Notes under the pieces: model-generated
What the model saw: only the letters and a program-made list of their open reading frames with translations
What the model was told of the DNA's origin: nothing
Database searches by the model: none
From: Dichotomocladium elegans
Lineage: Eukaryota > Mucoromycota > Mucoromycetes > Mucorales > Lichtheimiaceae
Reading direction: 5' to 3'
NCBI GenBank assembly: GCA_025716815.1
Contig: JAIXMN010000058.1
Coordinates: 1-59,609 of the forward strand
Length of the DNA stretch: 59,609 bases
Made by a program: the position numbers and the translations under genes
Part shown: piece by piece, positions 9,936 through 22,543 of the stretch
Layout of the letters: each line of letters begins with the position of its first letter
Position numbering within the stretch: position 1 is the stretch's first letter

Positions 9936-10027
9936 TATCGAGCATCGCGCGCGGCGAATTCGAGGTCGTTATATAGTTTTCGGCTAAAAATGTACCCTAT
10001 CACACAACAAAATTCCACGCACTCGTA
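9936..10027 (+). repeat. MULE left TIR, outer part (continues at 17141)
   Basis: 92 bp that are the reverse complement of 22452..22543. The match continues without a break on the far side of E1. Confidence 0.85.
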
Positions 10028-11153
10028 CAGGACTTTTCACAAGAAGTTTGCATTTTGTAAAAGTTTTTCGGACACGGTGATAGTTATCCGAAAACTAGTA
10101 AGTGAAAATCGGATATGGTGTTGTTGTAAGTCGGAAAGCTCGACTTGATTTTTCATGGTCAGGTTCAAGGTTTATCCAGAAACGAGAACCGAATTTTTCG
10201 GAAATCCTCACAATTTTTTTTCGTCCTTGGAGAACTTAATTTTTCGGACAGGCGACAAGCTTTCTTTCGAACTTGAGGATTTGATTCATTCGTTCTCTGA
10301 CAGACATTTCATTCGGAAGCCTGCACTCCGTTATCCGCAAAACGTCCCTCGATTTACCGTAATCGTCCACTGAGAGCATTCGGACGAAGTCTTTAAATAA
10401 TCGCGGTTGTATATACAATTCGAAATCGTGCAATGTTGTTCGGAAAGAAGATGGCTTTTATTCGGAAAGGAGCTAAACTCGCTATGCTTCTGTAATGCAC
10501 TCGCATGGGTACAGTTACTTTTAGTTTCTCCACTAGTGATTGAGCAGGTCGAATGGAGGTGTCAATTACAGGCGAGGGATTGGAGCTAAAAGAAAAACGC
10601 GACTGCCGAAAAATTTTACTATTTTTACTTGTGGGAAGTAGAACGGAAAATATGTGTTCCCTTCCCTTCATCACCGTCCTGAACGTTTCACTCCCAAATT
10701 CCGCACGAGTTCTCAGCCGACATAGTATTGCTACAATAATGGGATAAATGCCTACGCTCCTCCCTGCCACAAATCGCTTTCATCCCGGCACATTTTACAA
10801 GCAGCTAAAGCTCTGATTTCATGGCAGCAAAGTCGTTGATTTGTGTTCTTGTAAACGCATTGGCGGGGAATGTCATATAGTACGTCCGCATGCTTGTTAA
10901 CACTATTGGATCAAACAGCATTACTCCAGAGATTTACCTATATAGTTGTAAACACAAGTTTGAATTACATGGAGGCGGTATAGGTGAGTGTCTCTGATAC
11001 AATGCCATAGAAAATGGCTAACATGCATCCTCTAGTGCCCTGAAATATTGTTCTTACGTTGCTATCTCTCAACATGACGGGATGGCCCTTTTTACGTACA
11101 TGTTATGATTAAACGTGACAGTGGGTTGGTACAAGGAAAACAGTGGACGGTGC
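10028..11153 (+). repeat. E1 left TIR (about 1126 bp)
   Basis: Reverse complement of 16015..17140; identity stops at CGGTGC (11153), where the two arms diverge. Short frames inside occur in both arms and have no recognisable protein; none is called. The remaining 100 bp to the paralog stop hold nothing visible. Confidence 0.92.
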
Positions 11154-11256
11154 TTTACCGTGTCTATAGATGCTCAATCGTAAGAATGTATACAAGTCGA
11201 CAGGATATACAGCCGAGTAGAGTATGAGTATTTAATAAATGAGCAAAATGCCTTTA

Positions 11257-12707
11257 TTAATCTGAAGCGGACGGAAATGCCAGGAAGATATAGTCTTCGC
11301 ATTTTGATGGCGACATGGATTCAAAGACGGCATCAAAGCGATCGCCGACTGTTTGCCTTCCCCCAGGCGACAGCTGTCGGTTGCAGCAAAGTAGCAAGTC
11401 TCGTACCAAATACTCAGCAGGGTTCCAAGCCAACTCCTGCGCTGGAAAAATGAAAGGGGTGTGGCCCTTCTCCTCAGCTTTTTGAAAGACCGGCGCTGCC
11501 ACCTCAGCAGGGAGAGGATCAAATCCAAGAAACAGATTCTTCCGTTTTTCGGCATCCAAAATCGCCACAATGTCAGCAACAAATTGGATAAATTCATCCT
11601 TGGTGACGCGTCCTTCGAAAGATTTTGATGCTGTGGTTATAATGCCAGTGTGGTCGAACGCAATTAGAAGGCACAAGTGTGGCTTTTTATCGTCCACATC
11701 GGCGGTCTGCGAAGACGATTCTGTGGAGCGTGCTGGGTACGTGCGCCGGCCGTTCACCAGGAATGCCACTTCCGCGACGAACACGACATTCTTGTCAGGT
11801 TCAAATTCAGCTCTGGCTGACAATCGGTTAAATTGCCTTTCGTGCTCCTGCGCCGCTTCGATCGATCGCTCCACATTAAAGCTTTTCAATCGCTGAAACG
11901 TGATTCTTGCGTTCTTTTGTAGCCATCTTTGCAGTGGCACGCGCGAAGGGAGCCCATCGATATCTTCATCCATGCAATGCGATAACACATCGTCAACAGC
12001 GCAAACTGGGTGAGTGTCAACGTATTCCAGGATCAATCTAACCAGGGCCTTGCTAAATGGGGCCTTGGCTTTCGGGCCTCGCTTTTTAGGCGATTCTTGC
12101 TCCAACTGGTAACGAGCGAGGTGGTCAGAAAACGTCGACACTGCCATATTCGCAGATTTGGCGGCTTCAGCCATCGGGACACCGCACATGATGTGCTTCT
12201 CCATCGCCGCCTTGACTACTTCCGCATTGTGACGCTTGTACCCGGTCTTGTCACCGCGCTTGTACACCTTGCCCGTTTTTGGTGCAGCCAAACTTTTGCT
12301 GGCTGACACTTTCTTGCTACGAACTCGACGAACAGATGCAGCTACAGGTTCGACAGCAGTGGCTGTTTGGGTCTCCTCCATGTCGTGGTCGTCTGTGTGC
12401 ATCATCTATAAGCTCTCCACACGTGATTCTTTTCCCATTAACTCACTATCGATGCTGAAGGTGTATTCCTCAGCAAGAATACCGGGGTCGGCCTGTCTTT
12501 GGACTTAATGGTATAGTCATCGATACAAGGTAGGTAAGTTGAAATGAGCGTAGGTCAGTTGCTAAGATACTAACGTTGATGTTCGTCGTCCTCGTCCTGG
12601 AAACTAAACGACTTCATTTGTCCAGTCAGCGCGTAGATCGCGTCTCTTTCGCGCTCTGACAAAGTATCAATCTGCATAGTGGAGCTACGTTGTTCGTCGT
12701 TGGTCAT
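11257..12707 (-). CDS. E1 transposase paralog lacking the first catalytic Asp
   Basis: Exons inferred at 12707..12575, 12496..12447 and 12405..11257 (donors GTTAGT and GTGAGT, acceptors AAAG and TATAG), about 443 aa; only the 382-aa last exon is certain. It has two helix-turn-helix-like segments (KRHNAEVVKAAMEKHI...AAKSANMAVSTFSDH, and a second one containing VPLQRWLQKN) and then an RNase-H-like fold. Aligned with the E1 transposase, FIDEA becomes FVAEV (Asp to Ala). Asp in GFDPLP and Glu in WNPAE stay. The pseudogene in E0 has Gly at the same site and the same three-exon layout. It lies 3' of the transposase, same strand, 352 bp away. A DNA-binding partner or a repressor of transposition are possible roles (inference); a catalytic role seems unlikely. 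Confidence 0.8.
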
Positions 12708-13059
12708 GTTATATGTCGCGTCTCTATTCAGTGGTCATAAGTAAGCGGGTAATGCTCTATGAGCGATCGTGAAAAGGATAGCTTACTGAGGTAGAGGTAC
12801 GTGATGTGAAGTTTATCAGGAAGAAAGAGGAAATTGGGGAGAATAAAATCAATGGTTCACAAAAGGATGATTGAGATTTCTCAACGGAAAGAGTGTTGCA
12901 CATTGCACTGATAGTTTAACTACCTGTTTCGACAGCAGTAATAATAACGATTTTGACACCCGATGATAATAGTTGTATATATTTTGACTAGAACCACAGT
13001 AAAATGAGGAAAAAGAAGAAATGTGAGAAGGACTGGATACAAAGGATAAAGTGCGTGAT

Positions 13060-14727
13060 CTACAGCATTGATTCTTTTTGGCGGCATCTCTCGAAAAAGC
13101 TAATTGAATGCATAACCCAGCCTTCATAATCGCCTGGGGTCACTTTTGACATCGACTCGGTCATGCGAGCCACAATATCACTGATTATGTTATCTTCGTT
13201 GATCGGGTCTTGACGGCATAACGCTTTAACCTTGGAGAAGAATTCCTCTATCGGATTAAGGAATGGCGAGTAGCGGGGCAGGAAGACAAGATGATAACCA
13301 CGCTCTTCGACTGCTTCTGCAATAAAAGAAGGAGTATGGATCGGTGCGTTGTCACAAACCAGGTACGCACCCTGTCTACTCTGACCGTCGAGTCTGTTCA
13401 TTACTAAATGCAAGAACGCCAAGAAGTCAAGACTGGTCGTGCCTCTTCTTTTAGACTCTTTCAATGTTGCCCTGGCGGTGGTAGCGGAATTGTCCTTGTT
13501 CACTGCCTTGTCTCGTGCTGCAGTCTTGATGATCGCTTCGACAAGCCCATCCCTGCTGATAGCCGCCAATAACGTCATTGACGGGGCGCGAAGGGCGGGG
13601 ACCATGACCCGAGCTGGACATCCAACTTCGGACCTGGCGTAGTTGCGTCGCATACTGGCACTGAACGAAGCCTCGTCTATGAAGACACAGTTGCGCTCGT
13701 AGTCGATTATCTTCTTGTCTATCCAGTTGTAGACGTAATCTTGCCTCATCTGCTTAGTTTCATCATCATCGCGACGCTCAGGGTATCTGCCTGATCGCTT
13801 AAGGGTCAGCCGGCACTGATATATGAGGTGCCGGTGAAGGGTGGAAATAGAGACCATGCTGTTGAATTTTTCGAAGTATTTTTTCTGGATTTGGCCTAGT
13901 GTCGCGCTGTTGTGAAGCCGGATAAATTCCCGAAGAAAGGAGTCGCCCTCCACGCTGATCTTTCTTGGAGCTGTTCTCCCTTTAGGCATCGACTCCCAGT
14001 TGCCTCCATTATTTTTGAATCGGCGAAGGATGTGACCAACGTTCTGCCGTGTGGTGCCCACGATCTTTGCAGTCTCAGCATGTGTCATTCCGCATAAAAT
14101 TGCTAAATGGATTATACGTTTAATCTCCTTCTCGCTTAGGTTCGGCCCATTCTTTACACGGGTCTTTTTCTCGGCAGTGCGTACTGGGACGATTTGCATT
14201 TGTTCTATCACTTCAGAGTTGAAGGTAGGCGGCATCGGCGCTCTGACAGCCGGCAGCAATGACTGCATGCCCAGCATTTCGTGAGCAGGTGGCGTAGTTA
14301 TCGCAACATTCATAGCATTTTCGTCATCGCTGTCGTCGTCGCCGCTGCCACCACTGCTTTCTTCCTTGCCGCTGCTACTGTAGTCCGACTCAGACTCATC
14401 TGCTACGAAACGATATTGGAGGAAACGGGATTCATCCTCGTCTTCGCTCATAGCGTCATCGTCTACTTTGATTTAGCGGATACGTCAGGTTATGAAAGTA
14501 ACAAATAACTAACCACGCTCAACCTCTGTAATCTCATCCAGCTCTTCGTGGGGAGTGACTTGGCGAAGATCCAGAGAGTTCAAGGTATCAGCAAGGTTGG
14601 GTGTATCAATTGAAAGACTATTGCCCGCACCGCGCGAATGGATAGCAAGTCGATGCGTACGTTTTGAAATTCTACCCGAGGAACGAGTTGAGATGTTTCG
14701 AGTTTTGGTAAGTTTAGATGTGGTCAT
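13060..14727 (-). CDS. E1 DDE transposase (Tc1/IS630-like), apparently intact
   Basis: Two exons, 14727..14514 and 14462..13060 (intron GTTAGT...TAG, 51 nt), 538 aa. The N-terminus is basic and Ser-rich. Next comes an acidic Ser/Asp/Glu tract (SEDEDESRF...SSSGKEESSGGSGDD). An HTH pair follows (LSEKEIKRIIHLAILCGMTHAETAKIV, then a TLGQIQKKYFEKF-type HTH). The catalytic core has CVFIDEASF (first Asp), AYLVCDNAPIH (second Asp) and FLPRYSPFLNPIEEFFSKVK (Glu), which is the full DDE set. Known role: binds the TIRs, then cuts and rejoins at TA. The same N-terminal exon and acidic tract recur in the truncated gene of E2. It is preceded by the accessory gene (75 nt away) and followed by the paralog. 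No stop or frameshift is seen. Confidence 0.92.
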
Positions 14728-14802
14728 TGAGCGATGGTTTACGGTGGAAAAGAGAGAGGAAGAGTATCTTATGAAAGCATGGGAAGAATATATAATAAAC
14801 TT

Positions 14803-15526
14803 TTAAACATTTCTTTTTGACGCCAACAACTTCTGAACGCTTTTCTCCACCTTCTCTATCTTTGATATCACAATGCGGCACTCATATAGCATTGCTTTTC
14901 TCAATGCAGACTGAGAGACTGTCATATAGGTCTTCGTTCCATTTGCCACTATGGGCTCGGTGAGTGCCGAACAACTGCATTCAGCATCGGCGGGCACCTT
15001 GCTTGCGCTGTCATCGTATTGTGGCGGCTCTTGTAATTCACCTCTTGGAAGATCGGCGAGCTCGGCTGGTGCTTTACAGTTGGTTACTACGTTAAATAAT
15101 AGAGAAAGATAGCTATCACTTACAAACACAGTCTTCTAGTCGCAAGCATTTTACGGCATCTATAATCTCCTCCACAGGGCCGGATAAAATATCCTGTTCC
15201 AGGATTAGCACAGGTTCCACATCTGGGTCGTCCAAAAGGGTAAACTCCGGGATTCGTCGGAGCATTTCATCGAGGATTGGCGTCGGCTCTACATCCTGAC
15301 TTGCTTCGGTTGTCTGGTTATCTTCATTAGATAACGGTGCATCTACCTGCGCAGAGGATGCCCTTGCATGTTTCAGGTCATTGACAGCGTCCACAAGGGA
15401 AGTCAATGACCTAATAGCTGCCTCCAATTGCTCTGCAGTCGGACCAAGTTTCCTAGTTGACCGTTTTCTTATCGCCGACTTGTTTGCTGCTCCTCCCTTG
15501 CCATTTGCTTTTTTAACTTTTGTCAT
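14803..15526 (-). CDS. E1 accessory protein, unrecognised
   Basis: Two exons, 15526..15124 and 15086..14803, joined across a 37-nt GTAAGT...CGTAG intron, 228 aa. The ATG at 15526 is chosen; an in-frame GTG lies two codons upstream. The N-terminus is strongly basic (TKVKKANGKGG...IRKRSTRK, possibly a nuclear signal). The middle is acidic (LLDDPDVEPVLILEQD) and the C-terminus is a Lys/Glu-rich helix (SKIEKVEKSVQKLLASK) suited to a coiled coil. No known domain is recognised. It is the first of three minus-strand genes in E1, 75 nt upstream of the transposase. Its position suggests a transposition or regulatory partner, but that is only inference. The region 15533..16014 upstream holds no visible gene and may contain its promoter. 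Confidence 0.65.
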
Positions 15527-16014
15527 CGTCACAGGAGATACTTGCTGTACTGCGGATTAAACTGAAAGAAAGGTGGAGAAGAGAGGTTCTCTGTAAGGTC
15601 GGCGCGTTAGTTCAATGATATGGATCCTTACGTTTGTACAACGCGGTACATCAGCAAGTGCAACCTTACGACCTCCGCATTTGCTTACTGATCCCCTATC
15701 CTCGGCTGGATCATGATTATTGCCGAGATTACGGGAGAGGATACAGCAGCTGTGCAAAGTGATATCCAGATATTTTCAAAAATAATAGTTTGCTGTTGGG
15801 ATTACGTCAAACCATGATACAGAACATCAGACACAATAAACAACTGTTGGCCGCTAAAAGAAATGGTATTTACTCTAACGCTTGACATAACCAAGTCGTT
15901 TCGTAAAAGCTCCATAAAAAATGTTTTCTACCCCGAGGGTGGAAGCAAAAGGCTCTCGAACACCATTACTCCACATGGAATAGCTTCAAAGTTGAAATCG
16001 CAGAAAATAGTAAG

Positions 16015-17140
16015 GCACCGTCCACTGTTTTCCTTGTACCAACCCACTGTCACGTTTAATCATAACATGTACGTAAAAAGGGCCATCCCGTCATGTTGAG
16101 AGATAGCAACGTAAGAACAATATTTCAGGGCACTAGAGGATGCATGTTAGCCATTTTCTATGGCATTGTATCAGAGACACTCACCTATACCGCCTCCATG
16201 TAATTCAAACTTGTGTTTACAACTATATAGGTAAATCTCTGGAGTAATGCTGTTTGATCCAATAGTGTTAACAAGCATGCGGACGTACTATATGACATTC
16301 CCCGCCAATGCGTTTACAAGAACACAAATCAACGACTTTGCTGCCATGAAATCAGAGCTTTAGCTGCTTGTAAAATGTGCCGGGATGAAAGCGATTTGTG
16401 GCAGGGAGGAGCGTAGGCATTTATCCCATTATTGTAGCAATACTATGTCGGCTGAGAACTCGTGCGGAATTTGGGAGTGAAACGTTCAGGACGGTGATGA
16501 AGGGAAGGGAACACATATTTTCCGTTCTACTTCCCACAAGTAAAAATAGTAAAATTTTTCGGCAGTCGCGTTTTTCTTTTAGCTCCAATCCCTCGCCTGT
16601 AATTGACACCTCCATTCGACCTGCTCAATCACTAGTGGAGAAACTAAAAATAACTGTACCCATGCGAGTGCATTACAGAAGCATAGCGAGTTTAGCTCCT
16701 TTCCGAATAAAAGCCATCTTCTTTCCGAACAACATTGCACGATTTCGAATTGTATATACAACCGCGATTATTTAAAGACTTCGTCCGAATGCTCTCAGTG
16801 GACGATTACGGTAAATCGAGGGACGTTTTGCGGATAACGGAGTGCAGGCTTCCGAATGAAATGTCTGTCAGAGAACGAATGAATCAAATCCTCAAGTTCG
16901 AAAGAAAGCTTGTCGCCTGTCCGAAAAATTAAGTTCTCCAAGGACGAAAAAAAATTGTGAGGATTTCCGAAAAATTCGGTTCTCGTTTCTGGATAAACCT
17001 TGAACCTGACCATGAAAAATCAAGTCGAGCTTTCCGACTTACAACAACACCATATCCGATTTTCACTTACTAGTTTTCGGATAACTATCACCGTGTCCGA
17101 AAAACTTTTACAAAATGCAAACTTCTTGTGAAAAGTCCTG
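16015..17140 (-). repeat. E1 right TIR (about 1126 bp)
   Basis: Mirror of 10028..11153 and ends ...AAAAGTCCTG before TA. The two arms differ by isolated substitutions only (for example ACTTTTAG versus ATTTTTAG). Confidence 0.92.
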
Positions 17141-17142
17141 TA

Positions 17143-17592
17143 ACACCATCACCATCACCACCACGACCCCAGATCCCACTCCCGGCGACACTAACGTGCC
17201 CGACAGTTGCACGACCACAGCAAAACGCCGACATTCCCTTATGCCCCATGCTACAAAGATCCCAGGCCTAGCTGCAAAAAGACAATTTACCGTACAAAAA
17301 TAGCTGGTCTTGAAATATTTCAGCAGCCAAAAAGAAAAATTTATTTGTACAAAAATTGCGGGACTTTAAACTTGAAGCCCCCCCAAAAAAATTTTTTGGA
17401 TAATTGCCTCAACCAGCAATGCATGGGCACCTCATTTTCGCGTTTTTTTTTTCTTGGAAAACCAATTGCATTCAACTTTCACATGACCATGCACCACATT
17501 CCTGCACAGTCATGAAAATTGCGGAAACGGCATCAGCAACAATGCAGCTAATTATAACGAGAGACTTTCCCTACGCATGTGCGTTTGCTTTG
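17143..17592 (+). repeat. MULE left TIR, inner part of the well-conserved arm
   Basis: Reverse complement of about 22001..22451 with high identity; differences are mainly in the A/T runs. It resumes the arm interrupted by E1. Similarity falls off after CGCATGTGCGTTTGCTT. Confidence 0.85.
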
Positions 17593-22000: not shown

Positions 22001-22543
22001 TAGAAGCAAATGCGCATGTGTAGGGAAAGTCTCTCGTTATAATTAGCTGCATTGTTGCTGATGCCATTTCCGCAATTTTCATGACTGTGCAGGAATGTGG
22101 TGCATGGTCATGTGAAAGTTGAATGCAATTGGTTTTCCAAGAAAAAAAAAACGCGAAAATGAGGTGCCCATGCATTGCTGGTTGAGGCAATTATCCAAAA
22201 AAAATTTTTTGGGGGGCTTCAAGTTTAAAGTCCCGCAATTTTTGTACAAATAAATTTTTCTTTTTGGCTGCTGAAATATTTCAAGACCAGCTATTTTTGT
22301 ACGGTAAATTGTCTTTTTGCAGCTAGGCCTGGGATCTTTGTAGCATGGGGCATAAGGGAATGTCGGCGTTTTGCTGTGGTCGTGCAACTGTCGGGCACGT
22401 TAGTGTCGCCGGGAGTGGGATCTGGGGTCGTGGTGGTGATGGTGATGGTGTTACGAGTGCGTGGAATTTTGTTGTGTGATAGGGTACATTTTTAGCCGAA
22501 AACTATATAACGACCTCGAATTCGCCGCGCGCGATGCTCGATA
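22001..22543 (-). repeat. MULE right TIR, also the empty site of E1
   Basis: Near-identical mirror of 9936..10027 plus 17143..17592. Around 22450 it reads through GGTGTTACGAGTGCG, i.e. a single TA where E1 interrupts the left arm. Confidence 0.88.

Follow-up and report, generated by a model that had tools for sequence, protein, structure and literature searches.

At positions 10028–17140 of a 59,609-nucleotide stretch of the Dichotomocladium elegans genome (contig JAIXMN010000058.1, analysed as a single window) lies a Tc1/IS630-type element. Between its long inverted repeats it has three genes, one for a transposase with the DD34E triad, one for a collinear paralog of the transposase, and a third. 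In the paralog, the first catalytic aspartate is missing; its probable role is to hold DNA or provide structure, without cutting, within a mixed complex that also contains the active transposase, a reading to which we assign a probability of roughly 0.6. That the element encodes a two-subunit machine with a true division of labor, in which a DD34E transposase that is active and an ancient relative that cannot cut have stayed together across lineages with ~1.1-kb repeats, we consider about an even bet.

The boundaries of the element are well defined. Its arms, 10026–11158 and 16010–17142, each span 1,133 nt with the TA counted and are 99.8% identical, which rules out a chance inverted repeat. 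The left terminal inverted repeat (10028–11158, plus strand, 1,131 bp) begins with CAGGACTTTTCAC; the right one (16010–17140, minus strand) is likewise 1,131 bp long, and copies of a TA target-site duplication flank them at 10026–10027 and 17141–17142. An empty site, in which both element flanks are joined by a single TA, is present in the same window at 22452–22453 on the minus strand. There, in inverted orientation, the right flank is matched at 99% over 300 bp (17141–17440 against 22154–22453) and the left flank at 100% over 92 bp (9936–10027 against 22452–22543). The empty site thus demonstrates the insertion directly and shows the TA to be a true target duplication; its near-identity to the flanks indicates that the element inserted recently. 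Two further copies of the flanks, at C13:99440–99441 (94% and 90% identity) and C35:2391383–2391384 (80% and 94%), also overlap by two bases in the match tables. A TA starts all 15 element ends compared, seven of which had been found by a TA-containing pattern. Movement is presumably by cut-and-paste; the outcome of insertion is the part of this process that the sequence makes visible.

All genes of the element are encoded on the minus strand, in the order gene 3, transposase, paralog. The main exon of the transposase (13060–14462) holds an open reading frame (ORF) starting at the ATG at 14451 (13060–14451, 463 aa), which matches Pfam DDE_3 at E 2e-19 and carries D259, D367 and E402 in the DD34E arrangement. 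The paralog (11257–12405, 382 aa) matches DDE_3 weakly, at E 1e-4 and under the curated cut-off, and possesses A211 at the first catalytic position together with D296 and E331. Alignment of the profiles of both families extended over 336 columns (probability 99.9, E 2e-32, 18% identity) and placed the transposase motifs FIDEA, CDNAP and NPIE over FVAEV, FDPLP and NPAE in the paralog. None of 31 paralog motifs has the first catalytic Asp, whereas all of 20 transposase motifs have it. Among 12 paralog representatives, the second position is Asp in eight and the third is Glu in nine; because these two acids are not always kept, the paralog is an old dead transposase rather than a point mutant. 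A mariner-like fold was predicted for the transposase, and the paralog is predicted to keep a Mos1-like fold, made up of the two parts, DNA-binding and RNase-H-like, of mariner transposases. Helix-turn-helix Pfam models matched seven of ten paralog lineage representatives at E values up to 0.1. An earlier note on this DNA had described a transposon with 1.1-kb terminal inverted repeats at this position, an intact-looking DDE transposase, a second transposase-like protein in which Ala (FVAEV against FIDEA) replaces the first catalytic Asp, and an unrecognised third protein, all of which was borne out; its statement that the other two acidic positions remain holds for the window copy and fails for the paralog family at large.

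Matches to both proteins are distributed across the genome, and these, with their adjacency, rule out the paralog as a single-copy oddity. Adjacency was tabulated from 56 of 107 transposase rows, without the weakest ones or the second half of any split match, and from 66 of 109 paralog rows, without second fragments or hits to the transposase itself. Lineages A–E comprise the first 30 rows of the transposase table, reduced to 28 loci by joining two presumed split copies; the grouping is based on identity and coverage, and only eight of the loci are in the phylogenetic tree. A paralog match lies downstream on the same strand at 27 of these 28 loci, at a distance of up to 1.2 kb at 23 of them and of 2.7, 4.8, 5.8 and 12.8 kb at four that are probably interrupted; one of the four, C13:68076, has an additional paralog fragment ~0.6 kb away. 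The other 26 transposase rows, most of them more distant transposases, have no paralog within 20 kb.

Selection was queried with Nei–Gojobori estimates for 20 paralog and 13 transposase pairs. The ratio of replacement to silent substitution rates (dN/dS) of the paralog ranged from 0.14 to 0.26 in the ten of 20 pairs with measurable dS and a Fisher P below 0.05. Values within lineages were 0.264 (A1), 0.193 and 0.251 (A2) and 0.239 (B). The six unsaturated between-lineage comparisons gave 0.14–0.24 at dS 0.2 to 1.5, with Fisher P from 6e-13 to 4e-38: A1–A2 0.141 (dS 0.84), A3–A2 0.170, A1–A3 0.199 (dS 0.23), and 0.152, 0.238 and 0.136 between E lineages (dS 0.6 to 1.5). Five cross-lineage pairs were saturated at silent sites, and five close pairs had too few changes, among them one with none, one with two silent and no replacing changes, and three others. 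For the transposase, the two unsaturated between-lineage values were 0.128 (A1–A2) and 0.079 (E), and close pairs ranged from 0.19 to 0.52. Neutral drift of the paralog is rejected on these ratios; the coding sequences show that the paralogs change under constraint and are retained. The earlier note had named two findings that would speak against it, namely that most family copies lack the paralog or that the paralog dN/dS is near 1, and neither came true.

In a tree of 12 paralogs, eight transposases and 27 of 110 database homologues, all paralogs fall into a single clade with a support of 99.7/100. Both proteins show a group of A1 with A2 and one of B with C, with E apart; the place of D among the paralogs is unsupported. 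Homologues from other genomes separate the A–D transposases from the E transposases with moderate support, and the transposase–paralog pair may therefore predate those species. The organism-named members of the 110 transposase homologues come from Circinella, Lichtheimia, Absidia, Rhizopus, Parasitella and Rhizomucor. Inspected by column, none of the 110 resembles the paralog in its second and third catalytic motifs wherever these are aligned, a number of partial proteins being gapped at the catalytic columns. Another residue occupies the first Asp column in P0010, P0062, P0080 and P0094, the second position in P0024, and the third in P0009 and P0031. A search of viral contigs detected 63 transposase relatives and no relative of the paralog.

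Long repeats characterize the family. With the TA left out, they measure 1,131 bp in the window, 1,150 bp in the C57 fusion copy (A3), 1,027 bp in C72 (B), 1,033 bp in C56 (C) and 1,138 bp in C59 (E), that is, 1.03–1.15 kb in five lineages, and arm-to-arm identity in the five lineages measured at both ends is 99.0 to 99.8%. The measured repeats start with CAGGA (CGGGA in one C57 arm) followed by a T-rich stretch. Four A2 copies start likewise, with the second arm of the C32 copy matching over 550 bp only. Length and tip are kept, and the inner repeat sequence varies by lineage. In the outer half of the window repeat (10028–10592), TCCGAA/TTCGGA occurs eight times where this word would be expected 0.65 times, and seven of 200 shuffles hold some hexamer that is at least equally frequent; this array, found in the repeats of lineages A1 and A3 only, is suggestive of a candidate binding-site array.

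Fusions of the two genes also occur. At six loci (C55, C57, C59, C72, C92 and C94), transposase residues 1 to ~145 are joined to the paralog from about residue 23. The 512-codon fusion frame is intact at C55:26632–28146, C57:41267–42781 and C92:4552–6066, and it is interrupted or shifted in C59, C72 and C94. Fusion elements carry the same tips, and parts of such frames are annotated in the database as the proteins P0001 and P0002. Comparison of the paralog part of the three intact frames revealed no sign of selection on the fusion protein, with two silent and no replacing changes between C57 and C55 and one silent and five replacing changes between C57 and C92. The fusions look like non-autonomous deletion derivatives; a repressor role of their proteins is possible.

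Taken together, a working model for the element can be proposed. The transposase, with all three cutting residues, would cut and join at the TA-CAGGA ends, as its motifs and the insertion suggest. The paralog, unable to use the same chemistry, would hold DNA or shape the mixed complex, either binding within the ~1.1-kb repeats or pairing with the transposase so as to assemble, position or license the complex. A mixed complex is suggested because the paralog is about as constrained as the transposase (A1–A2), is nearly always adjacent to it and has kept both domains. The retained dead partner of the earlier note thus stands as far as retention, loss of the Asp and a single clade are concerned, and the choice between structural subunit and regulator still relies on inference.

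Several observations weigh against the paralog as a required subunit. The locus on C85 lacks a paralog, and seven of the 26 transposase rows without one (C56:24590, C46:1908830, C73:22358, C101:518959, C69:59629, C59:109391 and C68:1038594) are fragments 41–51% identical to the query and possibly decayed relatives that had no paralog. Conversely, paralog frames occur without a listed transposase, e.g. at C24:307078, C42:5797, C90:1474320 and C73:44556, and further ones at the contig ends of C28 and C58. The dN/dS is 1.51 in one close paralog pair (six changes), 0.92 in a second (four changes) and 0.58 in a third (three changes), and at long distance the paralog changes about twice as fast as the transposase (A1–B dN 0.584 against 0.293). 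The paralog clade is not nested in the A–E transposases and sits beside a group of other homologues (96.3/98); the paralog may thus descend from a different transposase and not from a copy of the one beside it, although its long branches could make this placement misleading. The paralog was found in D. elegans only, with a single-sequence search and a 10-lineage profile search, the latter requiring shared five-residue words and scoring only the best 7,994 candidates, returning two D. elegans proteins. Finally, a required subunit and a self-made inhibitor would be expected to leave nearly identical traces in sequence.

The main alternative is a self-made repressor that would keep copy number down, either by sitting on the ends or by entering inactive mixed dimers with the transposase; we regard it as rather unlikely. 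A DNA-binding-type domain and the fold are kept in the paralog and the catalytic site is not, as a repressor would have it, and the six N-terminal transposase/paralog fusions, three of them intact, are what a poison subunit might be built like. However, the intact fusions show no sign of selection among themselves, and the constraint on the paralog is near that on the transposase in one well-measured pair (A1–A2, 0.141 against 0.128). The paralog is also retained in lineages whose transposases are only 41–46% identical. Such constraint and retention, the one long-term and the other near-universal, point to a component required for spread more than to a brake, and for this reason we favor it over a repressor. 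A DNA-binding factor acting outside the cutting complex, such as a transcription activator of the element, a nuclear import factor or a target-site selector, would account for the helix-turn-helix matches and for the hexamer copies in the outer half of the window repeat. However, the hexamer stands out less when every possible word is taken into account, and both domains, including the RNase-H-like one that a simple DNA binder would not need, are collinear with the transposase over the 336 columns; we judge such a factor improbable.

Two further possibilities carry little weight. The paralog could still be a nuclease by way of another residue, and the Glu beside the lost Asp (E212), invariant in ten of ten paralog lineages, would be the obvious candidate. 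Ordinary transposases have the same neighboring Glu (E260), however, and it does not vary across a 43-row alignment of them; only part of the paralog representatives, moreover, keep the catalytic residues at positions two and three, which leaves this idea very little credit. Least credible of all is a functionless passenger, carried along because the copies are young: the paralog of some copies does have stops or frameshifts, and five close pairs have changed too little for constraint to be visible, but the between-lineage dN/dS and the near-universal adjacency contradict it.

Beyond the preferred reading of the paralog as a non-cutting subunit, the element holds further coding sequence, for which every intron and exon boundary given here is a prediction from sequence. 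Comparison with the sister lineage A2 and inspection of splice sites predicted an upstream exon 1 of the transposase (14514–14727, minus strand, beginning MTTSKLTKTRN), with which the protein would comprise 538 aa; in lineages B to E, inspection by eye showed a start resembling that of this exon. Between transposase and paralog, a conserved coding stretch (12570–12707, minus strand), in which 12 of 21 changed codons are silent in one 90-nt window between lineages A1 and A2, is possibly a 5′ exon of the paralog. The third gene, a putative accessory gene, has a predicted exon 1 at 15124–15526 with its ATG at 15526 and a predicted exon 2 at 14803–15086, both on the minus strand, separated by a predicted intron (15087–15123) and encoding 228 aa in all. 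Neither exon ORF matches Pfam. Homologues of its exon 1 were matched in lineage A and, weakly, in D, and a similar start was seen by eye in E; the gene was not recognised in lineages B and C when the translated upstream stretch was inspected by eye, which is no proof of absence. The earlier note did not model these probable introns, and hence lacks transposase exon 1, the gene 3 intron and the 12570–12707 stretch.

Other pieces related to the family were met as well. The window contains a second, truncated lineage E element (2–220 and 928–1833), with a C-terminal piece of the transposase and a paralog frame with two stops. Pairs of like transposase matches stand in opposite orientation ~2–5 kb apart at C31:604857/610245, C43:191533/194814 and C35:1584853/1587358, as if a related element had its transposase inside its long repeats. 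Repeated, decayed paralog-like pieces, ~32–33% identical and with a stop, lie at C59:156815, C59:153619, C93:15808, C73:56985, C2:343099, C56:155242, C57:1231718, C59:74674 and C80:2569; they possibly constitute another paralog-bearing derivative family.

We file the element as a member of the IS630-Tc1-mariner superfamily, with a TA target-site duplication verified by an empty site with one TA and a DDE_3/mariner-type transposase whose last two acids are separated by the ~34–37 residues that characterize the superfamily. With Tc1, Mos1 and Sleeping Beauty it shares the DDE_3 domain, the DD34E spacing, the TA target and the mariner-like predicted transposase fold. Tc1/mariner repeats are mostly short, and a Tc1/mariner transposase works with copies of itself; unlike these elements, the D. 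elegans element has three genes, ~1.1-kb repeats and a dead transposase paralog. The KP protein of the P element and Inh of Tn5 are inhibitory, shortened products of the transposase gene. They resemble the paralog in being element-made, non-cutting and transposase-like; the paralog differs in being a separate, diverged gene and no truncation product, with both domains, 18% identity to the transposase and a clade of its own.

According to the cited descriptions, Tc1/mariner elements typically encode the transposase alone (PMC12242761). The ciliate Tc1/mariner elements Sardine and Thon of Paramecium are described as having several genes and repeats of 425 to ~700 bp (PMC3464196), and the TBE elements of Oxytricha as having two accessory genes on which purifying selection acts, a finding called surprising for Tc1/mariner (PMC12242761, PMC4724952). 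The likeness to the D. elegans element thus lies, as far as these accounts go, in several genes per element and, for Sardine and Thon, in long repeats. The extra genes described are a 57-kDa zinc-finger/kinase protein and a 22-kDa protein in TBE, and a tyrosine recombinase and hypothetical ORFs in Sardine and Thon, and no second transposase is mentioned for TBE, Sardine or Thon in the cited descriptions. The second gene here is neither a tyrosine recombinase nor a zinc-finger/kinase gene, being instead a DDE_3-type transposase homologue. Among the titles and abstract beginnings searched, mostly without subscription papers, no Tc1/mariner element with a dead transposase paralog was described.

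The closest parallel in principle is Pgm, a domesticated piggyBac transposase of Paramecium, which in the cited account works with interacting, essential PgmL paralogs that have no catalytic site (PMC6143343). An active transposase beside dead paralogs is common to both systems; the paralog is, like a PgmL, a transposase homologue without the catalytic triad that is kept by selection, and the role proposed there for PgmL is our model for the D. elegans paralog. As described, Pgm and PgmL belong to a different superfamily and are encoded by the host, where they excise internal eliminated sequences, whereas the D. elegans dead paralog is carried by the mobile element. If our reading is true, selfish DNA can give rise to asymmetric transposition machines, and how such systems originated becomes a testable question; it could also explain the persistence of very long repeats in these elements. 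A mobile element would then possess a dead partner of its own, of the kind known from host-domesticated systems such as the Paramecium PgmLs.

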